From an uncultured Clostridia bacterium (GTDB lineage Bacteria; Bacillota; Clostridia; UBA1381): a stretch of 47,388 nucleotides of DNA. The notes beneath the pieces are model-generated. The model did no database searches and had not been told where the DNA came from. It worked only from the letters and a program-made list of their open reading frames with translations. The translations under genes and the position numbers were made by a program. Positions 7,779 through 20,272 of this stretch are shown here, one piece after another. Numbering within the stretch: the first letter of the stretch is position 1; every line of letters begins with the position of its first letter. The DNA is taken from positions 1-47,388 of the forward strand of contig CANPXG010000013.1 in NCBI GenBank assembly GCA_947585795.1, given 5' to 3'.

Positions 7779-8754
7779 TGAAACTATCGTGAACAGAATA
7801 ATGAGTGAGTATGAAAATATGTGCGCCGCTGCGGCGGAAAAGAGAAAAAAACGCGTTGACGAGGTGAATAAAAAATTTCCGAGGCTTGGTGAGATAGATA
7901 AGGAGATTTTTAGACGCGGTCTTGACAATGTGAATAATATTCTTAAAAATCCCGAAAAAAAGGACGAGTATAATAAGGATTTTAAGGAAAATTTAAAAAA
8001 ACTTGAAAATGAAAAACAAAAAATAATTAACGAGAACAATATTCCGTCAGATTACGATAAGTACGAGTATGCTTGTGATATTTGCGGCGACACGGGATAT
8101 GAGCCAAGCGGAAAAAGGTGTAAGTGTTTTGAGCAAAAGCTTATTAACGAGGCTTACTCGATGTCTAATATGGCGGATATTATTAAAAGTCAGAATTTTG
8201 ACACGTTTTCTTTTGATTATTATTCAAAAGAGTCAAGCGACGGACTTATTTCACCGTATGAAAATATGGTTAAAATTTATAATAATTGTAAAAGCTTTTG
8301 TGAAAGGTTTGACACGGAAACAAAAGGTATGGTTTTTTACGGTCCGACGGGGCTCGGTAAAACCTTTCTTTCGGGAGCAGTCGCGAAAGAGCTTATGGAC
8401 AGGGGAAAGACAGTCGTATATTTGAGAGCAGCAAGGCTGTTTTCCGTGTATGAGGATTACAAGTTCGGAAGAAATACCGACAAAAACGTTATAGATAATA
8501 TTTACAATACCGACCTTCTCATAATAGATGATTTGGGCACGGAGGTTCAGGATAAAAAAAATCTTTCGTTTTTGTTTGACGTTGTGAATGAAAGAACGGC
8601 GAACGGTAAAAAAATCATTATAAGCACAAATCTTGAAATAAGTGAAATTACGAAGCTTTACAGTATGCGCTTTACGTCGAGGCTGTATGAATATTTTATG
8701 ATGTACAGGTTTTACGGTGAGGATATAAGAATACAGAAATTAAAAAATATATAA
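7771..8754 (+). CDS. DnaC/DnaI-like helicase loader ATPase
   Basis: A replicative-helicase loader type AAA+ ATPase, 327 residues from ATG 7771. A Glu/Lys-rich N-terminal ~95 residues leads into a zinc-knuckle-like set of cysteines, C102, C105, C117 and C119 (CDICGDTG...CKC). The ATPase core follows, with Walker A GPTGLGKT at 191-198 and Walker B LLIIDDLGTE. STNLEI is the sensor 1 position, and MRFTSRLYEYF holds the arginine finger region. The track-favoured GTG at 7762 is less likely, because GGAGGTG at 7759-7764 serves as the RBS for the ATG at 7771. Firmicutes loaders work with a DnaD-type protein, and one lies at 16965. It ends in a shared hairpin terminator. Confidence 0.85.
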   Translation: MADETIVNRIMSEYENMCAAAAEKRKKRVDEVNKKFPRLGEIDKEIFRRGLDNVNNILKNPEKKDEYNKDFKENLKKLENEKQKIINENNIPSDYDKYEYACDICGDTGYEPSGKRCKCFEQKLINEAYSMSNMADIIKSQNFDTFSFDYYSKESSDGLISPYENMVKIYNNCKSFCERFDTETKGMVFYGPTGLGKTFLSGAVAKELMDRGKTVVYLRAARLFSVYEDYKFGRNTDKNVIDNIYNTDLLIIDDLGTEVQDKKNLSFLFDVVNERTANGKKIIISTNLEISEITKLYSMRFTSRLYEYFMMYRFYGEDIRIQKLKNI

Positions 8755-8778
8755 AAAAAGCGGTTTGACCGCTTTTTT
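8754..8778. terminator. Bidirectional terminator between the dnaC-like gene and pheA
   Basis: An 11-bp perfect stem, AAAAAAGCGGT (8754-8764) with ACCGCTTTTTT (8768-8778), and a three-base loop TTG. T-tracts on both strands fit termination of the converging transcripts. Confidence 0.85.
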
Positions 8779-9595
8779 AATTTGCAAATTTGTAAGAACC
8801 CAAAAATTTGTAAAATGGCGTGTTTTGGCGAACCTTGTCGAGGGCGAAGTATATTGTCGCGTCGTCTATGTTGCCGTCAATGTCGATGAAAAATACGTAT
8901 TTGCCGAGTTTGTCCTTCATCGGTCTTGATTCTATTTTTGTCATATTTATTTTTTCCTTCGCCAAGAGTTCGATAGCGCCGTAAAGACTTCCCGCCTTAT
9001 TGTCGAGAGCAAATACGATAGAGGATTTATCGTGGTCGGTCACTTCCGTGTTTTGATTTTTTTCTATAATTACAAAACGCGTCGAATTGTTTACGTCGTC
9101 GCCGCAGTCGGCGTAAAGTATTTCAAGTCCGTAAAGCTCGGCGCTCGACGGCGAGCCGATACACGCGACGCTTCCGTCCGACGCTGCCGCGCGTTTAGCC
9201 GCCGCCGCGGTAGATTCCGCAAACTCTATTTTCGTTTCCGAAAATTCGTGTGAGAGCAGCCTCGAGCATTGTCCTATCGGCTGCGGGTGCGACGTTATTA
9301 CTTTTATATCCTTTTTTTTTGTACCCTTTTTCACCATAAGATTTTCGCTTATGTGGAGTATATATTCGCCGGTGATAAACAAATCAACATCGAACGCGAG
9401 CGCGTCGAGCGTAGTGTTTATGCTTCCGTCGATCGAATTTTCTATCGGTACTATCGCCCTGTCCACCTTACCGTTTTGTACGGCGAGGATACAGGAGTAT
9501 ATAGTCGAAAATTCTTTTATTTCTTCTTTTCCGCGCGACCACTCGATAGCCGCTTGGTGTGAAAACGTCCCGTTGGGACCGAGATAACCTAACAT
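8777..9595 (-). CDS. pheA: Prephenate dehydratase
   Basis: Converts prephenate to phenylpyruvate, the committed step to phenylalanine. The 272 residues match a monofunctional PheA with no chorismate mutase domain. The N-terminus GYLGPNGTFSHQAA is diagnostic. The catalytic Thr sits in STRFVII (Thr172). Residues ~191-265 form a C-terminal ACT domain with ESRPMK (222-227), which in the family binds phenylalanine for feedback inhibition. It lies 12 bp after aroF in the same direction, so the pair is an aromatic operon. Confidence 0.96.
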   Translation of the reverse strand: MLGYLGPNGTFSHQAAIEWSRGKEEIKEFSTIYSCILAVQNGKVDRAIVPIENSIDGSINTTLDALAFDVDLFITGEYILHISENLMVKKGTKKKDIKVITSHPQPIGQCSRLLSHEFSETKIEFAESTAAAAKRAAASDGSVACIGSPSSAELYGLEILYADCGDDVNNSTRFVIIEKNQNTEVTDHDKSSIVFALDNKAGSLYGAIELLAKEKINMTKIESRPMKDKLGKYVFFIDIDGNIDDATIYFALDKVRQNTPFYKFLGSYKFAN

Positions 9596-9607
9596 AATTA
9601 TATTTCC

Positions 9608-10627
9608 TTAAAGTAATTCTTTATTTACCGCTTTTGCTATCGGATCAAGCTCTTTCATGAGTTTGTCAAAGTTTTCGGGAGTAAGCGACTGCGCTCCGTC
9701 GGACGCGGCTTTTTCGGGACAGTTGTGAACTTCGATCATAAGACCGTCCGCGCCCGCCGCGACAGCTCCCTTGGCTACCGCGGGAACGTATTTATACGTG
9801 CCGGTGGCGTGTGAGGGATCCGCGATTATCGGCAGGTGTGAAAGTTCCTTTGTAACGGGTATTGCGCTTAGGTCAAATGTGTTTCGCGTCGCCGTTTCGT
9901 AGGTCCTTATGCCTCTTTCGCAAAGAATAACGTTTTCGTTGCCCTCAGACATGATATATTCCGCCGCCATAAGCCATTCCTCTATCGTGCAGGCAAGACC
10001 GCGTTTTAAAAGTACGGGTTTATCACCTTTTCCGACCTCGCGCAAAAGCTTAAAGTTTTGCATGTTTCTCGCGCCTATTTGTATTATGTCGGCATACTTT
10101 GCGACAAGTTCCACGTCGCGCGTGTCAACGACCTCGGTGCATATAGGCATACCGAGTTCCTTGCCGCTGTTGTACATTATTTTAAGACCGTCATCCTCAA
10201 GTCCCTGGAACGAGTACGGTGACGAGCGCGGCTTGAACGCGCCGCCGCGAAGTATATTCGCGCCGGACATTTTTACGGCTTTGCTTACCGTCGTAAACTG
10301 TTCCTGACTTTCAATAGCGCAGGGACCGGCGAATACCGCAAGTTTTTTGCCTCCGACCGTAATGCCGTAACCCACGTCTATTACGGATTGTTCCTTTTGA
10401 AGCTCCTTCGACGCGAGTTTGTACGGCTTCATGATAGGCACGACGTTTTCAACGCCGTCCATAGTCAGTATTTGGTTCATGCTTAGAAGTCTTTTATCGC
10501 CTATCGCGCCTATTACCGTCTTTTTTTCACCGTAGATGGGGTGTGTCTGAAAACCGAATTCCGCCAAAAGCTTTTCAACGCTGTCTATTTCCTTTGCGGA
10601 AGCGGAGTCCTTCATAATGATAATCAT
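9608..10627 (-). CDS. aroF: 3-deoxy-7-phosphoheptulonate synthase (DAHP synthase, type I beta)
   Basis: Condenses phosphoenolpyruvate and erythrose 4-phosphate, the first shikimate-pathway step. The barrel shows GPCAIES at residues 101-107, [14 protein letters not shown] near 127-140, the metal-site Cys and His regions, and [11 protein letters not shown] near the end. The first ~80 residues, opening [20 protein letters not shown], form a ferredoxin-like regulatory domain typical of type I beta enzymes of the AroA/AroF (Thermotoga-like) group, which in relatives senses aromatic end products. Length 339 is normal. The MIIIMK start matches family N-termini. A strong promoter is at 10665-10693. 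Confidence 0.95.
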
Positions 10628-10664
10628 TTGTCATTCATTCCTTTTTCATTGTTTTTTCTACTAC

Positions 10665-10693
10665 AGTATAACAAAAAAATATAACTTTGGCAA
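10665..10693 (-). promoter_or_regulatory. Sigma-A promoter for aroF-pheA
   Basis: Minus strand: TTGCCA (10693-10688), 17 bp, TATACT (10670-10665). The leader before the aroF ATG is only about 30 nt, so no attenuator or T-box is possible downstream of this promoter. Confidence 0.7.
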
Positions 10694-10702
10694 TATGAAA
10701 AT

Positions 10703-10725
10703 AAAAAAACCGCGCGGCGGCGGTT
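10703..10725 (-). terminator. Terminator of the XRE regulator gene
   Basis: On the minus strand AACCGC and GCGGTT (10725-10720 with 10713-10708) form a six-base-pair stem rich in G and C, followed by a T-run (10709-10703). It overlaps the stop codon of the upstream XRE gene and insulates it from the aroF promoter. Confidence 0.65.
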
Positions 10726-10939
10726 ATTTTACAGGCTCGGAATTGTCGGTACGACCGAGAATGTAATCGGTGGAGGTATTGTAATAGTCGGCGAGAGCGA
10801 TAAGCATCGATACGGGAATTTCCCTGAGTCCTCTCTCGTAACGCGCGTATACCTGCCTGTTGCACGTTAAATAGTCCGCAATCTCTTGCTGTGTCTTGTC
10901 ATTATCGGTTCGTAAATCATATAATCTCTTAAAAATCAT
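10724..10939 (-). CDS. XRE-family helix-turn-helix repressor
   Basis: A 71-residue single-domain lambda-repressor-like regulator. The helix-turn-helix covers TQQEIADYLTCNRQVYARYE, and ADYYNTSTDYILGRT is the family's closing helix. I start it at ATG 10939, because AGAGGTGG lies five bases before it. The longer frame to 10966 would begin inside the promoter. The gene diverges from the GerMN-domain gene. The shared control region has palindromes based on GGTAC/TGGTA that overlap both promoters, which suggests the protein represses itself and its neighbour. It has no ligand or metal domain, so its signal is unknown. Confidence 0.85.
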   Translation of the reverse strand: MIFKRLYDLRTDNDKTQQEIADYLTCNRQVYARYERGLREIPVSMLIALADYYNTSTDYILGRTDNSEPVK

Positions 10940-10950
10940 ATAACCACCTC

Positions 10951-10979
10951 TTGACAATGGTACCATATGGTACTATAAT
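10951..10979 (+). promoter_or_regulatory. Perfect consensus sigma-A promoter for the GerMN gene
   Basis: TTGACA (10951-10956), 17 bp, TATAAT (10974-10979), both hexamers perfect. A 14-bp perfect palindrome, GTACCATATGGTAC (10960-10973), fills the spacer, so a bound repressor would cover both hexamers. A promoter this strong usually needs a repressor to be useful. Confidence 0.8.
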
Positions 10980-11012
10980 GTAAATAATAATGGTATCAAA
11001 CGGTACCATTAT
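10957..11012. promoter_or_regulatory. Operator cluster for the XRE regulator
   Basis: Three nested inverted repeats sit here: ATGGTACCAT (10957-10966), GTACCATATGGTAC (10960-10973), and the 9-bp arms ATAATGGTA (10987-10995) and TACCATTAT (11004-11012) around an 8-bp gap. All share the half-site TGGTA. They overlap both divergent promoters. Binding by the adjacent XRE protein is inferred. Confidence 0.55.
10972..10999 (-). promoter_or_regulatory. Promoter of the XRE regulator
   Basis: Minus strand: TTGATA (10999-10994), 16 bp, TATAGT (10977-10972). It overlaps the -10 of the divergent promoter, so the two transcription starts exclude each other or are controlled together. Confidence 0.5.
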
Positions 11013-11037
11013 ATTATACGTGATCGGGGTAAGTTTT

Positions 11038-11550
11038 ATGAAAAAGAAAGGTTTTAATTGGATTTATGTAGCTTTAGCCGTGGTTTTGCTGACGGTGTGC
11101 GCGAGCGTGTTTTTAATTACGCGCGCGGCAAGCTTACAGACGGAGGAAATAAATATATATTTTGTTGACGCGGAAAGCATGCGTCTTACTCCCGTAAAGA
11201 CGACCATACCTAACGCCGATACGGAAAGGACGGCGCGGTATGTGCTTGACGCGTTGATCGAAGGTCATGACGACAATCCAAAAATTTTACGGCTTGTCCC
11301 GCGCGATGAGAGTTGTATGACGGTGAAGGTAAAGGATAAGATCGCGTATGTTGATTTAAAAAGCAGTATATTAAAAACTCATCCCGACGGACGTGATTTT
11401 GAAATTTTGACGGTTTATTCGATCGTAAATTCACTGACGAATGTTGACGGTATCGTAAATGTTCGATTTACCGTTGACGGTGAAAGGAAAAAAGATTTTA
11501 TGGGTTATGTGGATATGCGCGAAACGTTTATACCGGATTATTGTGTGTAA
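11038..11550 (+). CDS. GerMN-domain membrane-anchored protein
   Basis: A 170-residue protein with one N-terminal membrane segment (WIYVALAVVLLTVCASVFLI) and an outside domain matching GerMN, the domain of the spore-germination protein GerM. It shows the pattern of an early strand (INIYFVDAE), a helix with ARYVLDALIEG, then VPRDESCMTVKVKDKIAYVDL and the ending LTNVDGIVNVRFTVDGE. The start is ATG 11038, after GGGGTAAG. The in-frame ATG at 10990 lies inside the operator region and has no RBS. Expression looks governed by the adjacent XRE repressor rather than by an obvious sporulation sigma factor, so a role in germination is not shown here. Confidence 0.75.
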   Translation: MKKKGFNWIYVALAVVLLTVCASVFLITRAASLQTEEINIYFVDAESMRLTPVKTTIPNADTERTARYVLDALIEGHDDNPKILRLVPRDESCMTVKVKDKIAYVDLKSSILKTHPDGRDFEILTVYSIVNSLTNVDGIVNVRFTVDGERKKDFMGYVDMRETFIPDYCV

Positions 11551-11560
11551 GTTTTATGTA

Positions 11561-11593
11561 AAAGGAGCGTATCGGTTGATACGCTCCTTTTTG
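11561..11593. terminator. Bidirectional terminator
   Basis: AAAGGAGCGTATC (11561-11573) pairs perfectly with GATACGCTCCTTT (11578-11590) around GGTT, followed by T residues. On the minus strand it ends in an A-to-T tract as well. It serves the GerMN gene and the converging lipoprotein gene. Confidence 0.85.
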
Positions 11594-11594
11594 A

Positions 11595-11951
11595 TCATTT
11601 GTCTGTATCGACTGCGTCGCCGACAGCGTCACCCGCGTCCTTTACGGCGTTGCCCGCGCCGTCGGCAATGTCACCAGCCGCGTCGCCGACATCTTTTACG
11701 GCGTTGCCCGCCGCGTCGCCGACGTCTTTTGCCGCGTCACCGGTATCCTTCGCCGCGTTGTCCATGTCGTTTTTCATGTTCTTGTCGCTTGTGTCGTCCT
11801 GTATCTTGCCGTTTGTCGTGTCGCTCACGTTGCCGTTATCGGTGGCTTTGGGAACTGTTGATTTTTGAGCGTTGTTCGTTCCGTTCGCGCCGCATGACGC
11901 GAGTATTGCCGTTAAAACGACGGATAATATAACCAATTTTATGCTTTTCAT
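11595..11951 (-). CDS. Small lipoprotein with 11-residue Gly-Asp-Ala repeats
   Basis: A 118-residue lipoprotein. The signal peptide ends in the lipobox LASC (Cys20). A Ser/Thr/Asn-rich spacer follows, and from about residue 69 the sequence becomes an 11-residue repeat: TGDAAKDVGDA, AGNAVKDVGDA, AGDIADGAGNA, VKDAGDAVGDA. The pattern recalls the amphipathic 11-mers of late-embryogenesis-abundant and similar proteins, but I cannot assign a family. The DNA is correspondingly repetitive (gcgtcgccgac-type units), so repeat number may vary between strains. AGGAGGAAATAAAGC precedes the ATG. It converges on the GerMN gene through a shared terminator. Confidence 0.75.
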   Translation of the reverse strand: MKSIKLVILSVVLTAILASCGANGTNNAQKSTVPKATDNGNVSDTTNGKIQDDTSDKNMKNDMDNAAKDTGDAAKDVGDAAGNAVKDVGDAAGDIADGAGNAVKDAGDAVGDAVDTDK

Positions 11952-12044
11952 GCTTTATTTCCTCCTATTTTGTTTTATAATACACCGTTATTATTATCAA
12001 TATTCTCTTTTTTATAAGCATATTTTTAATTTTAATACTTTTTG

Positions 12045-12073
12045 GGAACAAAAAACATTTTATATTCGTCTAA
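12045..12073 (+). promoter_or_regulatory. ECF-sigma-like promoter for the copper-amine-oxidase-domain gene
   Basis: GGAAC (12045-12049), 17 bp, CGTCTAA (12067-12073), about 50 bp before the ATG. The GGAAC/CGTC pair is the usual signature of ECF sigma factors acting on envelope genes. No convincing sigma-A promoter was found in the same stretch. Confidence 0.35.
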
Positions 12074-12121
12074 TATTGTGTAAAGGTAATTACCGAAAAA
12101 AATAAAAGGGAGAATATTGAA

Positions 12122-13288
12122 ATGAAAAAACTAATTGCTTTACTGACAGTTTCGGCAATGCTCGCGTCCGGCGCGGTCGTGTTTGCCGAGGGGGAGGAAA
12201 TTCTTGACGGTACGATAGATACGGTGCAGGGAGATATAATGCTCATAAATGAAACGGGAACGGAAATTCCCGTGGCTGACGGCGCGGTAAGCGCGGTAAC
12301 AGGTTCTTATGTGTATAAGGACGTTGTTGTTACGGATGTGAAGGACGATATGGTTTCGACCGTTCTCGCGGGCAGTGAGGACGCGGCGGCGGTCAAGAGT
12401 GAGGATGAAAAAATCGCGGCTCAGGAAAACGTTGTAAATTATATCGTTTCGGATCAGACGCTCGTGTTCTCAAAGGCTTCGGGTGATGCTAAGACGTTGA
12501 AGGATGTTAAAGTGGGAGATCAAATCGGCGTTTATACCGGCGCGTATGAGCCGGCGGTGCTTATGCTGCCGCCGCAGCTTAAGGCGAACATCATAGTTAT
12601 TTATGATAATCTTGAGTTTGACTCATTGAGAATGACCGACGCGGACACTTATCTCGATAAGGACGGCGTGCTCACGAACGCGGCGAATACGCTTGCGTTG
12701 AATATTGATGATTCTACGGAAGTTGTAAATATGGCGGGTGAGAAAGCGTCGGCGGCCGAGCTTGCGAGAAAAGATTTGCTCGTGTTCTACGGTAACTCGA
12801 CAAGAAGTATACCCGCGCAGACAACTCCGACAAAGATAGTTGTTTTGGGTGAGAATGAGATCGCGCTCGCCAACATAGACGCGGCTGCGGAAGCTGTTCC
12901 CGAGGTAACGCCTGCTCCGGAAGCGTCGCCGAGTGCAAACGTAACAGAAATAAAGGTGGGCGATAAGTCCGTAACGAACGTTTATAAGAAGGGTGACATT
13001 GATATGGTGCCGCTTCGTGAAATCGCGGAGGCGCTTGGATTTACCGTTGATTGGGACGGTGAGCTTAGAGCAGTTATGATTAACGGCGGTATGTACAGCC
13101 TGAAGATAGGTGAGAACAGCTACGTTAAGGGTAAGATGGCTCCGTTGGAGCTTGGTGCGGCTCCCGAGATTACGAATGACCTCACGTATGTGCCCGCGAA
13201 CTACTTCGCGGAAGTGCTTGAGTGCGGCACGGAGGCGGCAGGTTCGGTTATGACGATAACCGCGCCGTCGGCTCAGATTGGGGAGTAA
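12122..13288 (+). CDS. Secreted protein with a copper-amine-oxidase N-terminal (stalk) domain
   Basis: 388 residues. A signal peptide ends near GAVVFA (about residue 22), and the mature protein starts EGEEILDG. The middle ~230 residues resemble beta-rich secreted clostridial proteins (GTIDTVQGDIMLINETG) and are not assigned. A Pro/Ala-rich linker (PEVTPAPEASPSA) leads into a C-terminal copper-amine-oxidase-N-like domain, MVPLREIAEALGFTVDWDGE through YVPANYFAEVL. That domain is common in Clostridia surface proteins and has no catalytic copper site, so this is not an oxidase. The RBS is AAGGGAG. An ECF-type promoter upstream hints at envelope-stress control. It converges with the toxin-antitoxin pair through a shared terminator. 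Confidence 0.8.
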   Translation: MKKLIALLTVSAMLASGAVVFAEGEEILDGTIDTVQGDIMLINETGTEIPVADGAVSAVTGSYVYKDVVVTDVKDDMVSTVLAGSEDAAAVKSEDEKIAAQENVVNYIVSDQTLVFSKASGDAKTLKDVKVGDQIGVYTGAYEPAVLMLPPQLKANIIVIYDNLEFDSLRMTDADTYLDKDGVLTNAANTLALNIDDSTEVVNMAGEKASAAELARKDLLVFYGNSTRSIPAQTTPTKIVVLGENEIALANIDAAAEAVPEVTPAPEASPSANVTEIKVGDKSVTNVYKKGDIDMVPLREIAEALGFTVDWDGELRAVMINGGMYSLKIGENSYVKGKMAPLELGAAPEITNDLTYVPANYFAEVLECGTEAAGSVMTITAPSAQIGE

Positions 13289-13322
13289 GTGGAGTAGGTG
13301 AAAAAATAATTTTAATTAAATC

Positions 13323-13350
13323 AAAACCGCCTGATCGTCAGGCGGTTTTT
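13323..13350. terminator. Bidirectional terminator
   Basis: AAAACCGCCTGA and TCAGGCGGTTTT form a 12-bp perfect stem around TCG, with an extra T on the plus strand. It serves the converging copper-amine-oxidase-domain gene and the toxin gene. Confidence 0.85.
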
Positions 13351-13353
13351 GTG

Positions 13354-13665
13354 TTAAATAAATTTAATATAATTTTGTCTGCCGTAGAAAAAACGCACGA
13401 CATAAACAATATTTTTTGATTCGTTTACTCGATAAATAAGCACATAATTATTTATTATCGTTTTTCTGTATCCGTCCTTACGCAAACGGCTGTCGCCGCA
13501 ATACGCGTACATGAATGGGTTCTCGGCAAGGTCTTTGTAAACCTCCTCAATTTTGGCGAGCAAGTTTTTCGCAGCAACAGGATTTTTTAATGAATTTACG
13601 ATATAACCCAAAACACTGTCTATATCATCATGCGCTTCAGCCGAGATAATAACATCATATTTCAT
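13354..13665 (-). CDS. RelE/ParE-family toxin
   Basis: A 103-residue type II toxin. It opens MKYDVIISAEAHDDIDSVLGYI, the usual first strand and helix of the RelE/ParE fold, and has GYRKTIINNYVLIYRVNE and IVYVVRFFYGRQ near the end, matching the family core. RelE relatives cut ribosome-bound mRNA, and ParE relatives poison gyrase. The sequence alone does not separate these, though the Arg-Phe-Phe-Tyr-Gly-Arg ending fits both. The start is ATG 13665, after TAGGAGCAA, rather than the upstream ATG at 13701. It overlaps the antitoxin's 3' end by 11 bases, the normal order for Phd/YefM systems. Confidence 0.85.
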   Translation of the reverse strand: MKYDVIISAEAHDDIDSVLGYIVNSLKNPVAAKNLLAKIEEVYKDLAENPFMYAYCGDSRLRKDGYRKTIINNYVLIYRVNESKNIVYVVRFFYGRQNYIKFI

Positions 13666-13915
13666 ATTTGCTCCTAAGTGTATCAAGTGAATTTTTTGCA
13701 CTCATAACACGATTGGTATCAATTGCCTTTTCACTTTGTTTGATTTTTTCATAAATATCGTTTATATACGCCATCTTTTCGTATAGTTCTATATTCATAA
13801 TAACCATATCACCGTAGCCGTTTTTGGTTATAAACAACGGTTCGTTTAAGCTGTGACACATTTCAGATATTGCACTTGTATTTTTTAAATCCTTGATGGG
13901 TATAATATGCGGCAT
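13655..13915 (-). CDS. Phd/YefM-family antitoxin
   Basis: An 86-residue antitoxin. The N-terminal DNA-binding half is typical of Phd/YefM: IIPIKDLKNTSAISEMCHS, then EPLFITKNGYGDMVIMNIELYEKM. The C-terminal half (KIKQSEKAIDTNRV...) should wrap the toxin. AAGGAGGTTGAT lies before the ATG. The promoter upstream carries inverted TGGTA repeats that fit autoregulation by the toxin-antitoxin complex. Confidence 0.9.
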   Translation of the reverse strand: MPHIIPIKDLKNTSAISEMCHSLNEPLFITKNGYGDMVIMNIELYEKMAYINDIYEKIKQSEKAIDTNRVMSAKNSLDTLRSKYEI

Positions 13916-13931
13916 AATATCAACCTCCTTC

Positions 13932-13969
13932 TATGGTATTATTGTACCATAATTATACCATAACGTCAA
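13932..13969 (-). promoter_or_regulatory. Promoter and operator of the toxin-antitoxin pair
   Basis: Minus strand promoter: TTGACG (13969-13964), 17 bp, TACAAT (13946-13941). Overlapping it are a 7-bp perfect inverted repeat, TATGGTA (13932-13938) with TACCATA (13945-13951), and a further half-site TACCATA (13956-13962), 11 bp on. This spacing fits dimers bound on one face of the helix. Confidence 0.65.
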
Positions 13970-14041
13970 GCGTATTATTCCTCCTAACGAAATATCGTAT
14001 ATCGCCAGCTACTGCCGTATTCTCGCGAATTTTGATTAGTA

Positions 14042-14075
14042 AACAAATATCCACCCGTGGGGGTGGATATTTGTT
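14042..14075 (-). terminator. Terminator of the sugar-binding lipoprotein gene
   Basis: AACAAATATCCACCC (14042-14056) pairs perfectly with GGGTGGATATTTGTT (14061-14075) around GTGG, a 15-bp stem directly after the 14087 stop. A short T tract follows on the plus strand, but little follows on the minus strand, so the direction is inferred from the gene. Confidence 0.65.
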
Positions 14076-14086
14076 ATTTTTCAAAA

Positions 14087-15217
14087 TTAGTATCCTATGT
14101 ATGTTTTCAGCCAGTCGTTGGTGACGTAGTTTTGGATGTCGCCGTACTGTTTCGGAGCTACATCGTATATATTTTCGATAGTCGTATTTTCTTTGAGCAT
14201 ATCGCGCGTAATAAGTGACGCGGGCATTTCGATATAATTCGTCGCTTTGTCCGTCACGGGATCTTTTATATCCCCGTAATCGCCGCTTAACTCGAGAGCA
14301 AGTATTCTTATTCCCTGTTCACCGTTCGCTTTGAAATCCGTGCAGGCGCAAGCCGCCCAACTTGAGCCTTCCTCAAGCATACACTGTATATCTGCGCCGC
14401 TTAGATCCACAGAAACGATGGGGATGTTAAAACCCAACTCCTTTATGGCTCTGTAACAGCCGCGCGCGTAAACATCGTATGCCGCCCATACCGCGTCTAT
14501 ATCTCCTTCGCCGTATGACGCAAGGGTTTCTTTCATTACATTGTACATGGATTCCTCGGCATTGTTATAATCTGTGGGCGCTATAACCGCAACCGTGTTT
14601 ATTTTTCCTTCGTCTGCATATTTTTTGTAGCCGACTTCGCGTCTGTCAAAGGCGGCAATATAATCCGGTATCCAAACCTTTAATATATTCACCGGCTTTT
14701 TGTCGGGGTACAGCTGTGTGCAGGTATAATCCAAAAGCTCCTCGGCAAGTCCCGCGTCGTCCTGGAAAAACTGTGTTACTCCCTCGATGGTTTGCGCTTC
14801 TCCGTTCTCATCCTTAAACTGTGTGTCAAAGGTTACGATTTTAAGGTCAGGATATTCTTGTAACAAATCAGACAAAAACCTGTAGGAATACGCTTCGCCG
14901 CCGTGTGACAAGAACAAGCCGTCATAGCCGCTTTCGGCGCAGTCTGTTATTTGTTTTTTAAAAACTTCGTCATCTCCGTCGGAATAGAACACGTCACACG
15001 TCATGCCGAGCTTTTGTGCCGTTTCGACGCATTGATCCGCGCAAAGCTCAAAAATATCGCTTGACGGCATATTCAGTATGTACGCCGCCTTTTTGCCGTA
15101 TACCGGAGAGGCTGCCTCGGCGTTTTCGTTACCCTGTTCATTATTGCTCGTCTGTAGCGAGCCGCAGCCGCTTAGGAGCAGGATCGCCATAATTAAAAGA
15201 CATATTGTTTTTTTCAT
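14087..15217 (-). CDS. Sugar-type ABC transporter substrate-binding lipoprotein (orphan)
   Basis: A 376-residue lipoprotein with a lipobox LLSGC (Cys18) and a Ser/Asn/Glu-rich spacer. The body resembles periplasmic binding protein type 1 of the ribose/galactose family: an early strand (AAYILNMPSSDIFELC), a hinge, FLSHGGEAYS, DAVWAAYDVYARGCYRAIKELGF (the domain-swap region of LacI/RbsB folds), and VSVDLSGADIQ. In relatives it captures a sugar or autoinducer-like ligand for an ABC importer. No permease or ATPase gene is nearby, so the partner is elsewhere or it acts as a sensor. It follows the Cys-rich 64-residue gene by 14 bp. Confidence 0.8.
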   Translation of the reverse strand: MKKTICLLIMAILLLSGCGSLQTSNNEQGNENAEAASPVYGKKAAYILNMPSSDIFELCADQCVETAQKLGMTCDVFYSDGDDEVFKKQITDCAESGYDGLFLSHGGEAYSYRFLSDLLQEYPDLKIVTFDTQFKDENGEAQTIEGVTQFFQDDAGLAEELLDYTCTQLYPDKKPVNILKVWIPDYIAAFDRREVGYKKYADEGKINTVAVIAPTDYNNAEESMYNVMKETLASYGEGDIDAVWAAYDVYARGCYRAIKELGFNIPIVSVDLSGADIQCMLEEGSSWAACACTDFKANGEQGIRILALELSGDYGDIKDPVTDKATNYIEMPASLITRDMLKENTTIENIYDVAPKQYGDIQNYVTNDWLKTYIGY

Positions 15218-17990: not shown

Positions 17991-18308
17991 TTAGTGTTTT
18001 TCTTTGAATTTCAGGAAATCAATGTAGTCGCTGAGCAGCTTTAGAGAATCCTGCGACAGCGTGCTTATATCGCTGAACATTTTTGTTACTGTTTTGTAGT
18101 TGGGAATATCGGTTATTCCCATAAGGTAATCCATGCTCACGTCAAAATGCTCCGCTATTTTTAAAAGTAATTTCTCGTCGCGCGGGAAATGTATACCGCT
18201 TTCGTAAAAGCTTATCATACTGCTCGATACGTTAAGAAGCTTTGCAATATCCTTTTGCTTTTCGTCCTTATCCTCCCTCAACGATTTTAACCGTTCCGCG
18301 AACCCCAT
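17991..18308 (-). CDS. XRE-family transcriptional regulator
   Basis: A 105-residue regulator. The helix-turn-helix is KDIAKLLNVSSSMISFYESG, followed by the phage-repressor-like closing helix AEHFDVSMDYLMGITDIPN. The last ~40 residues (DISTLSQDSLKLLSDYIDFLKFKEKH) form a helical tail, likely for dimerisation. I start it at ATG 18308, with TGGAGGTGAT as the RBS. The GTG at 18326 would add six residues and lies upstream of the Shine-Dalgarno. It diverges from the large membrane protein. The inverted repeats flanking that gene's promoter are candidates for its operator. Confidence 0.85.
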   Translation of the reverse strand: MGFAERLKSLREDKDEKQKDIAKLLNVSSSMISFYESGIHFPRDEKLLLKIAEHFDVSMDYLMGITDIPNYKTVTKMFSDISTLSQDSLKLLSDYIDFLKFKEKH

Positions 18309-18387
18309 AAAATCACCTCCACACACTTTATTTAATATGAAAATAATACAATATATTTAAATTTTATTGTGGTTTAAATTAAGAATA

Positions 18388-18442
18388 TTAATCTTTTTTG
18401 TTGACATTTTAGATATATTAAAATATAATGTAAAAAGATTAA
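18388..18442 (+). promoter_or_regulatory. Consensus promoter flanked by an 11-bp inverted repeat
   Basis: TTGACA (18401-18406), 17 bp, TATAAT (18424-18429), both perfect. TTAATCTTTTT (18388-18398) before the -35 and AAAAAGATTAA (18432-18442) after the -10 are exact inverted copies, centres about 44 bp apart, four helical turns. A regulator bound to both could enclose the promoter. Function is inferred, since AT-rich inverted repeats can arise by chance. Confidence 0.55.
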
Positions 18443-18469
18443 ATATACTGATTTGAGGAGATTTGTGTG

Positions 18470-20272
18470 ATGCGGAAGAGTTTGTTGTTAAAATTTTCGG
18501 CGGCATTTTGCGCCGTGTTTGCCGCAGCGGGTATGCTTGTCGTTATATTTTCAAATATCGTGATTGGCAAAGGCGAAGATGTCGCATATACTGCGGGATA
18601 TGTCTTGGCGGCGGTCGTTTTGACGGGTATGTTCGCGTTTGTGTGCGCGTTCCGTACATCGCGGCGGCGGGCGGAAAGGGCGGTGCTTATTTTAATTTCC
18701 GCCGCGATACTTATTTTGGGTGCGGTGTTTACGCCGTATTCGCCGTGTCACGACTCTCTTGACCTGCACAACGCGCTGTACAATGTGCTGAATAATAAGG
18801 AAATCGACACCTTTTACAGGGCATATATGAATTTTTGGATAAATAATAAACTGACGGTTTACTGTTATATTCCGTTTGTAAAACTGTTTGGCTCGGTAGA
18901 AACGGGTGTTCGCGTATTAAACGGTGTATTGAACGCCGGAGCAGTATTTTTCGCGGCGGGCGCGGTGAAAAATATTGTAAAGAACAGTCGTTTTGAACGG
19001 GCGCTGTTTATTATATCCTTTCTTTCGCCGTTTCTGCTTATGTCCGGTCCGTACATATACCTGCCCGCGCTGTTTCTCGCGGCAGGCGCGGTATTTTTTA
19101 TAACGTTAAACAAACGCGCCGCGCTTGTGCCGTTTTTTATATGCTCATCGCTGCTTTTTATATTGCGTCCGACGTGCTTTGGATTTATTTTGGTATTTGT
19201 GACTGCCGGTGCGTTTTTTAAAATAAAGGATAAAAAAGATTTTTTAAAGGGATTAATTGTGCTTTTTCTTACGATAATACTTGCCTTTCTGTGTAAAAAC
19301 GCTGTCGGGTACACTCTTAATAAAACGGGGACACACAAATATCCTTCAATGCACAACGGCGCGTTTTTGTGGACGACAGAGCTCGGTACGCGGTTAAACG
19401 GAAAGAAAACCGGAACGTGCTTTTATATGTTTTTTGACAAAGACGACGACTTTGACGAAATACAAAATGACTTTAACGGTCTGTGGCTCAAATACTATGA
19501 GGACGAGTTTTACAAAACGAACAAATACGAGGAAATAAAAGAGGAGCAAAAAATTATAGGTGAAAAAATACTTCGCCGTACTCTTAACGCGGGCTTTGCG
19601 GATACCGTAAAAAGACTTTCTTTAAAGACAATAAATTTTTATAGGAATATGTACATACCGTATTTTTATAAACAGAATGTGAACAGCGGTAATTTTAAAA
19701 TATGGAAGAATTACGACAAAAAATATTTTGATTATATGAACATAATTCTTCTGTTGTTCTTTTTCGGTGCGGTGAAAAACGCGGTAAGGGTGTTTAAGCG
19801 CGGCGCGGACGGTACGGTCACGGCGCTTATACTGTCCGCCGTTGCGGTGAATGTTGTTCTTATACTTTTTACCGAGGTGGCGAAAAGGTATATGTTCGAC
19901 TTTTTCACGCCGATGGTAATAAGCGTTGCGGCGCTGTTTGCCGACGGCAAGGAACGTAATATTTCCCGCGCGGAAAAGGTGGTGCTTGCCTCGTTCTTTA
20001 TTATTTTTCTTATTCTTTTTGAAAGAAAGTGTAATATAACGCCGCTTAAAAACGCCGAGCTGACATTTACGCGCGGTGAAAATGTGACGATGACCGTCAA
20101 AATGAAAAGAGCGTGCCGCGAAAATTATATTATAGAGTGCGGCGGCGAACGTATGAGTATTTACGGTAAAAAAGAATTTTCCATAACCTTCCCCGACGAT
20201 ACCTTCGACGCGTTTTCCGTTATCTCTCCGAGTAAAAGCAAGCTTGAATTTTCCTCACAAATAATACGGTAA
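18470..20272 (+). CDS. Polytopic membrane protein, GT-C glycosyltransferase-like
   Basis: About 600 residues with at least ten membrane segments from residue 10 to about 530, then a soluble ~60-residue beta-rich tail. The first long extracellular loop (PCHDSLDLHNALYNVLNNKE) carries acidic residues in the position where GT-C glycosyltransferases (family GT39/PMT-like) have theirs. I have no firm family match, so glycosyl transfer from a lipid-linked sugar is a guess. ATG 18470 follows GAGGAG. The GTG three bases earlier is less likely. A terminator-like hairpin lies after the stop. The gene is next to an XRE regulator and no cell-wall or polysaccharide genes. Confidence 0.55.
   Translation: MRKSLLLKFSAAFCAVFAAAGMLVVIFSNIVIGKGEDVAYTAGYVLAAVVLTGMFAFVCAFRTSRRRAERAVLILISAAILILGAVFTPYSPCHDSLDLHNALYNVLNNKEIDTFYRAYMNFWINNKLTVYCYIPFVKLFGSVETGVRVLNGVLNAGAVFFAAGAVKNIVKNSRFERALFIISFLSPFLLMSGPYIYLPALFLAAGAVFFITLNKRAALVPFFICSSLLFILRPTCFGFILVFVTAGAFFKIKDKKDFLKGLIVLFLTIILAFLCKNAVGYTLNKTGTHKYPSMHNGAFLWTTELGTRLNGKKTGTCFYMFFDKDDDFDEIQNDFNGLWLKYYEDEFYKTNKYEEIKEEQKIIGEKILRRTLNAGFADTVKRLSLKTINFYRNMYIPYFYKQNVNSGNFKIWKNYDKKYFDYMNIILLLFFFGAVKNAVRVFKRGADGTVTALILSAVAVNVVLILFTEVAKRYMFDFFTPMVISVAALFADGKERNISRAEKVVLASFFIIFLILFERKCNITPLKNAELTFTRGENVTMTVKMKRACRENYIIECGGERMSIYGKKEFSITFPDDTFDAFSVISPSKSKLEFSSQIIR

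Follow-up and report, generated by a model that had tools for sequence, protein, structure and literature searches.

The region between a 71-amino-acid XRE gene and a divergent GerMN gene in an uncultured Clostridia bacterium (10951-11012) reads as a divergent switch, in which palindromic predicted operators overlap both divergent promoters and are kept in relatives. The XRE protein is most probably a small autorepressor that binds two operators, O1 and O2, and represses both its own promoter and that of the GerMN gene, with regulator and operators forming an old cassette that has come to lie next to a duplicated GerMN gene. Positions are those of the window, by which we mean the whole 47,388-nucleotide stretch of DNA that was analysed.

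The promoter region and its two predicted operators

The features of the locus are as follows.
9608-10627, minus strand: DAHP synthase gene (aroF-type), conserved neighbour (PF00793 and PF18152; locus compared in 16 genomes)
10727-10939, minus strand: 71-amino-acid XRE (HTH_3) regulator, predicted repressor (PF01381, E 9.2e-12; AlphaFold2 model)
10944-10950, minus strand: XRE ribosome-binding site GAGGTGG (from sequence; AAGAGGTG kept in most of 20 aligned relatives)
10951-10979, plus strand: GerMN promoter, perfect consensus TTGACA-17-TATAAT (from sequence)
10957-10976, no strand: predicted operator O1, ATGGTACCATATGGTACTAT (palindrome; 84% mean pairwise identity in 20 relatives)
10972-10999, minus strand: predicted XRE promoter, TTGATA-16-TATAGT (from sequence; a TATAAT/TATAGT-like block lies just before O1 in most of 20 relatives)
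10990-11009, no strand: predicted operator O2, ATGGTATCAAACGGTACCAT (20 of 23 same-helix relatives carry a second copy, spaced at 32-33 bp)
11038-11550, plus strand: 170-amino-acid protein with an N-terminal hydrophobic segment and one GerMN (Germane) domain (PF10646, E 1.5e-18)

The first-pass annotation had described a consensus promoter with a palindrome inside its spacer, and its coordinates proved right. TTGACA (10951-10956) and TATAAT (10974-10979) are separated by 17 bp, and the spacer contains the perfect 14-bp palindrome GTACCATATGGTAC at 10960-10973. Perfect 12/12 promoters with a 17-bp spacer occur twice in the window, compared with a mean of 0.015 in 200 dinucleotide shuffles, and one of the two holds a perfect palindrome of at least 14 bp in its spacer, a joint occurrence found 0 times in the shuffles; 14-bp perfect palindromes alone are at chance level (4 in the window and 5.2 in the shuffles). 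A second 9-bp inverted repeat and an overlapping promoter for the XRE gene had also been proposed, and both are present: the arms ATAATGGTA (10987-10995) and TACCATTAT (11004-11012) form the repeat, and TTGATA (10999-10994, in O2) and TATAGT (10977-10972, at the edge of O1) can be read on the minus strand with a spacer of 16 bp.

The point missed in that annotation is that the repeats are copies of one 20-bp element, and they are best read as two copies of a single predicted operator, O1 and O2, with a centre-to-centre distance of 33 bp. O1 occupies the spacer of the GerMN promoter and overlaps the predicted XRE -10 element, and O2 covers the predicted XRE -35 element and about +5 to +24 of the inferred GerMN transcript. 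When the bacterium's own assembly (G000, 86.5% complete) was scanned with a pattern derived from O1 and O2, these two were the only sites at 0-1 mismatch, followed by one site with 2 mismatches and five with 3; a genome-wide regulon was rejected on this result, and control is therefore treated as local. The site with 2 mismatches (L003 1500-1520; G000:C29:19507) lies in a short hairpin with GC-rich arms and is probably no operator. Elsewhere in the window, TTGACG-17-TACAAT (13941-13969, minus strand) stands ahead of a Phd/YefM-ParE-type toxin-antitoxin pair (13354-13915, minus strand) and holds two direct ATGGTA motifs that resemble half of O1.

The XRE protein passes the gathering score of PF01381 with 45.3 bits (cut-off 23) over residues 6-60. 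Its AlphaFold2 model (mean pLDDT 92.5) has five helices in a lambda-repressor-like fold that matches many XRE structures at Z 9-12, and places the recognition helix at about residues 28-36. The start of the 71-amino-acid protein at ATG 10939-10937, with GAGGTGG at 10950-10944, is plausible; a longer frame of 80 amino acids begins at 10966, within O1. Membership in a type II toxin-antitoxin system was looked at, and the partner of the XRE gene is by Pfam the GerMN protein. Relatives of the XRE protein in named records are uncultured Clostridia, some of them called Monoglobus.

Operators and regulator in related loci

We compared 110 XRE loci (30 among the genus matches listed and 80 of 271 relatives), which left 105 after 5 duplicates were dropped. 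All 105 were chosen by similarity to the window XRE, their source genomes are mostly metagenome assemblies, and many loci are closely related, which means that the counts lack independence. The recognition helix CNRQVY[AS]RYE is found at 23 of the 105 loci, and the query was the window O1 in symmetrised form; the broken XRE gene of the related genome G015 was counted neither in the same-helix nor in the other-helix group. With up to 5 mismatches allowed, 20 of the 23 same-helix loci have two sites, invariably separated by 32-33 bp, compared with 0.01 in shuffles and 2 of 81 loci with other helices. At up to 6 mismatches the counts are 21/23, 0.02 and 6/81, respectively. Later searches gave 24 further loci, 9 of them repeats and 15 new; nine of the new loci have the same helix, and the operator pair is present at 32-33 bp in eight of these nine, the exception being L226, which has one degenerate site. 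One of the eight (L224) has a stop within the XRE frame. The helix occurs with no site at L007 (from G009, with an XRE protein 80% identical) and L009, and at both loci the XRE gene lies behind another gene of the same strand.

Among 20 relatives, the mean pairwise identity is 0.84 in the 20-bp O1 block and drops to 0.29-0.30 beyond O2, because the divergent genes differ among relatives. The divergent partners of the 23 same-helix loci include the GerMN gene (L004 and L005), a 77-83-amino-acid (R/C)HDF protein (8/23) and others. Taken together, these comparisons show that the predicted operators track the regulator rather than the divergent gene, and the XRE gene with its putative O1 and O2 is an old cassette that is present in many Clostridia.

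These results bear on the proposal of the first-pass annotation that the region is a compact XRE switch controlling the GerMN gene. The regulatory guess is well supported by sequence comparison, with the operator pair kept in most same-helix relatives (20/23 and 8/9), but the comparison does not support the GerMN-XRE pair as the unit: it is found in 3 of 16 genus members, and the XRE gene with its operators stands beside other genes in many species. The predicted unit is the XRE gene with its two operators, and the GerMN gene is a recent passenger or target. It had also been suggested that relatives be compared for joint retention of the pair and the palindromes. The proposal passes this comparison: G005 (L005) retains the pair and both operators, and weakened operators are seen among the relatives in G015 (L027) alone, where the XRE gene is broken.

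The (R/C)HDF protein has its gene divergent to small XRE genes with several types of helix, at L068:3675-3905, L006:1806-2036 and 11 other loci. It is the divergent partner in 13 loci as drawn, at a distance of more than 330 bp in L009 and L140. No Pfam family was found in at least 12 of its 13 members, there being five single weak hits, and there was no convincing PHROG match. As a required co-factor it was rejected: it occurs in 4 of the 16 genus genomes and is absent from G000 and G005 (E 0.001), and is therefore not needed in the bacterium's own assembly.

A phage origin of the cassette was also considered and found no support among the viral, phage and plasmid relatives and the regions read. 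XRE relatives number 20 on viral contigs (best 53% identical), 134 in phage records (best 68%) and 55 on plasmids. The best phage relative, L188, has the helix NRNVYWRYEKG and a divergent promoter of just 9/12, and in the two plasmid regions read the XRE gene follows another HTH gene.

The duplicated GerMN gene and its promoter

The GerMN protein passes the gathering score of PF10646 with 67.9 bits (cut-off 23), and its Germane stretch spans residues 40-151 of 170. A GerMN match is present in all 16 genus genomes, and the window gene is a duplicate of a second copy in the same assembly (G000:C19; 71% identical). An XRE gene with a GerMN gene upstream of the DAHP synthase gene is found in three of the 16 genus members (G000, G005 and G015, the last with a broken XRE gene), and in this lineage the pair sits directly upstream of aroF. 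When 0.9-1.5 kb upstream of aroF was read, 12 of the 15 readable genomes had no XRE gene, GerMN gene or operators there; the sequence of G003 ends at the gene. On the minus strand at 11595-11951 lies a 118-amino-acid lipoprotein-like frame that consists largely of DAAGNAVKDVGDAAGD-type repeats and has no Pfam match, and G001 and G015 have a similar frame close to their DAHP synthase genes.

In the GerMN tree, one clade (support 100/97) holds the two copies of G000, the two copies of G005 and the copy of G015, and the support for a single origin of the three XRE-linked copies is just 71/55. The other 13 GerMN copies follow the gene of a TSCPD-type protein (10 seen as a frame, the remainder by its end), and in 7 of the 13 genomes with a TSCPD-linked copy, spoIIIAA is found on that copy's contig no more than 4 kb away. 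A CATATA[ACT]T box is present upstream of all 13 of these copies and of none of the three XRE-linked copies, and GTAATATT stands 14 bp before the box in 9 of the 13 and in 0 of the 3. Together the two elements resemble the sigma-E consensus of B. subtilis. The genus looks spore-forming, with Spo0A above cut-off in 15 of 16 genomes; SpoIIIAA is above cut-off in 8 of 16, and near-full or contig-cut matches at E <1e-60 are found in 13 of 16.

The first-pass annotation had set the usual tie of GerMN proteins to sporulation against a small XRE repressor, and this contrast needs correcting, in that the window gene duplicates one which has a sigma-E-like promoter behind the TSCPD-protein gene and in some genomes lies near spoIIIAA. 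By these comparisons, the window GerMN gene is a duplicate specific to this lineage, and the gene that it duplicates has, in other members of the genus, a putative sigma-E-type promoter. Its pairing with the XRE gene is recent, and the sequences show the gene to be duplicated and its promoter to have been exchanged. We infer the direction of the duplication, the use of sigma-A and sigma-E, and the timing of expression.

At the G015 locus (L027, G015:C65), the start and roughly 26 initial codons of the XRE gene are missing, and the GerMN gene beside it is intact. Mismatches to the ideal palindrome number 4 in O1 and 4 in O2, compared with 1 and 3 in G000, and the spacer palindrome has 5/7 pairs, compared with 7/7, with a promoter of 12/12 in both. 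G015 would thus be a natural knockout, with the XRE gene broken, O1 decayed and the hexamers intact, a case that is one species and may include an assembly error. The spoIIIAA contig of G015 breaks off within that gene, and G015 is represented here by its XRE-linked GerMN copy.

These data also speak to whether the GerMN gene is a true target. In the alternative, the XRE protein mainly regulates itself and GerMN expression is incidental, the gene having merely landed at the strong divergent promoter of an older cassette. The many other genes that adjoin the cassette, the small number of genus members with the pair (3/16) and the retention of the GerMN gene in G015 despite its broken XRE gene would fit such a history. 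However, the GerMN gene is intact in G000, G005 and G015 (68-88% identity, no stops), the promoter hexamers are perfect in all three, and O1 and O2 are identical between G000 and G005, and we consider incidental expression unlikely.

B. subtilis GerM is described, in an excerpt of a report on it, as a lipoprotein that acts in sporulation and is needed for the SpoIIIAH-SpoIIQ complex (PMC7924749). The window protein shares the GerMN domain with Bacillus GerM but has one such domain, compared with two in GerM according to the same excerpt (PMC7924749). It is not GerM, as tandem GerMN domains are absent. A separate protein of about 315 amino acids with two stretches of similarity is encoded in several of the 16 genus genomes.

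A recurrent promoter layout and its predicted mechanism

Across the 105 loci, divergent promoters with 11-12 of 12 matches are found at 42 (0.74 in shuffles) and perfect ones at 16 (0.02 in shuffles). Divergent promoters of at least 10/12 occur at 60 loci, and the spacer is 17 bp in 59 of the 60, as read by a scorer that settles ties toward 17 bp. A spacer palindrome of at least 6/7 pairs is found in 29 of these 60 promoters, compared with 4.4 in shuffled spacers, and its centre lies 10 or 10.5 bp after the -35 element in 24 of the 29. The combination of a near-consensus divergent promoter and a palindrome at that spot is therefore found at 24 of 105 XRE loci, compared with 0 of 291 control genes of the same loci (31 promoters of at least 10, 0 perfect, 1 palindrome, 0 centred at 10-10.5 bp). 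Of the 29, 15 have a second operator copy at -25 bp and 8 have one at +32 or +33, with several of those 8 no better than chance when judged by O1 similarity alone.

The spacer palindromes vary with the recognition helix (e.g., TGGTACC, TAGTAAA, TAGCGGA and CTCAAATTGTGA types). How similar two helices are predicts how similar their spacers are when the rest of the protein is given (partial rank correlation 0.26, with 0 of 500 permutations as high), and the partial value for the rest of the protein, given the helix, is 0.14. These results show that the predicted operator sequence changes along with the recognition helix. An N-terminal hydrophobic segment is present in 28 of 39 divergent genes of at least 100 amino acids, compared with 79 of 339 control genes of the same loci (Fisher p 2.8e-9); a script selected the divergent genes and 50 of these were then chosen by eye for this count, so that the 39 are partly eye-picked.

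Against generality, 31 of the 60 strong promoters fall below a 6/7 palindrome, and 45 of the 105 loci have no promoter of 10. We also read four XRE paralogues of the bacterium's own genome (L182-L185), one of which has a strong spacer palindrome, and an over-wide general rule for the layout was rejected as the four did not all fit. L182 has a promoter of 11/12 and a palindrome of 4/7, L184 has 11/12 and 5/7, and L185 has no strong promoter within the scored 140 bp. At L183 (G000:C38:2700-3700), a 12/12 promoter with the 7/7 spacer palindrome TTATACCATTATGGTATAA, centred at 12.5, faces a gene with a signal-like start. The sole other perfect TTGACA-17-TATAAT of the window (18401-18429) also lies between an XRE gene (17991-18326, minus strand) and a divergent gene, which encodes a 601-amino-acid membrane-type protein (18467-20272, plus strand); its spacer palindrome is 6/7 and centred 13 bp after the -35 element.

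It appears from these loci that the promoter design, with altered predicted sites, recurs beside many related regulators of gut Clostridia. The broadest reading, which in our judgement is evenly balanced between right and wrong, is a single blueprint across a large set of small Clostridia XRE repressors. It would consist of a near-consensus divergent promoter with a 17-bp spacer, a palindrome centred 10-10.5 bp after the -35 element, a second site at +32/33 or -25, and an operator sequence set by the helix; it would tend to control cell-envelope or secreted proteins and to travel as a cassette, and here it would have taken over a duplicated sporulation-type gene, moving it from mother-cell to vegetative control.

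At the locus itself, binding, dimerization, cooperativity and repression are all predicted from sequence. XRE dimers would bind O1 and O2, which are about three helical turns apart, so that cooperative binding is plausible. Bound at O1, the protein would lie between the -35 and -10 elements of the GerMN promoter and on the XRE -10 element; bound at O2, it would lie over the XRE -35 element and the first transcribed bases of GerMN. Since these positions are over elements of both promoters, binding would block both. When the XRE protein is low or inactivated, the otherwise perfect and very strong GerMN promoter would fire. In the G000/G005/G015 lineage, the duplicated GerMN gene would have come onto the divergent side of the cassette beside aroF, and the move would have replaced mother-cell timing with control by a vegetative-type promoter.

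Other modes of action were weighed. The XRE protein might resemble the controller proteins of restriction-modification systems, activating its own promoter from the distal site at low dose and repressing it at high dose. O2 overlaps the XRE -35 element, which is weaker than the GerMN -35 element, and C.AhdI and C.Csp231I are among the matches of its fold, as are many repressors. However, bound protein should obstruct polymerase at both sites, since each overlaps promoter elements; the ten window proteins scanned with Pfam include no product of a restriction or modification gene; and the 33-bp spacing is unlike that of C-protein sites, which closely abut. Such an activator-repressor is quite improbable. 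O1 and O2 could also act on one promoter only, or activate one. A main role of the palindromes as hairpins in RNA or DNA (a 5' UTR stem or a terminator) is scarcely credible: O2 falls within the predicted 5' UTR of GerMN, where pairing of its 9-bp arms is possible, but O1 lies in the promoter spacer outside the GerMN transcript, the outer operator bases are kept as sequence common to O1 and O2, the sites vary with the recognition helix, and no RNA element is found in 8000-15000 at Rfam gathering scores.

Repression of both promoters by a small XRE protein is a kind of switch that is already known. ImmR of ICEBs1 represses a divergent promoter and controls its own, and it has a C-terminal part and an antirepressor protease. 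CylR2 of Enterococcus faecalis is a repressor whose binding site is an inverted repeat within a divergent promoter region, and it acts on the cytolysin genes with the membrane partner CylR1. The operators of the P22 c2 and 434 repressors are palindromic sites near divergent promoters. ImmR (7t8i) is the closest solved sequence relative of the window XRE (E 7.1e-13; Z 10.7, 35% identity), but the window protein consists of the HTH domain plus a few residues only and adjoins no integrative element among the genes examined. CylR2, a 66-residue HTH protein (1utx, 2xiu), has the same fold (Z 9.8-9.9) at about 22-24% identity. P22 c2 and 434 repressor, for which operator complexes have been solved, also share the fold (Z 10.3-10.5 and 8.9); in contrast to these, the window protein has no CI-type C-terminal domain, two sites are seen rather than three, and the locus is outside a prophage region as far as examined.

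Operators in the spacer position compete with RNA polymerase in engineered promoters, as an excerpt of one study describes (PMC7477573). The core-position operators of that excerpt (PMC7477573) lie between the -35 and -10 elements, like O1, whereas the layout described here is natural and recurs with many operator sequences. In an excerpt of a DAP-seq study of Clostridium thermocellum that included XRE proteins, one of these autoregulates a toxin-antitoxin operon via two strong sites (PMC8457756). The literature searched, partly by title and abstract, yielded no small XRE repressor described with operators in the spacer, with divergent genes or with co-variation of helix and operator, which does not imply that none is published. 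What is new is that one layout is common to operators of many different sequences, and that a duplicated gene of sporulation type has exchanged its promoter.

If true, these loci would form a natural collection of repressors with their operators and promoters that has switched specificity repeatedly while keeping a single layout, and the amino-acid-to-base code of small XRE proteins would become testable from sequence. They would also provide candidate switches for anaerobic gut bacteria. For this organism, a sporulation-type gene would have been duplicated and one copy put under the control of an unrelated promoter that can be tightly repressed; the genome would retain the other copy untouched, and in a related species the repressor gene would already be broken.
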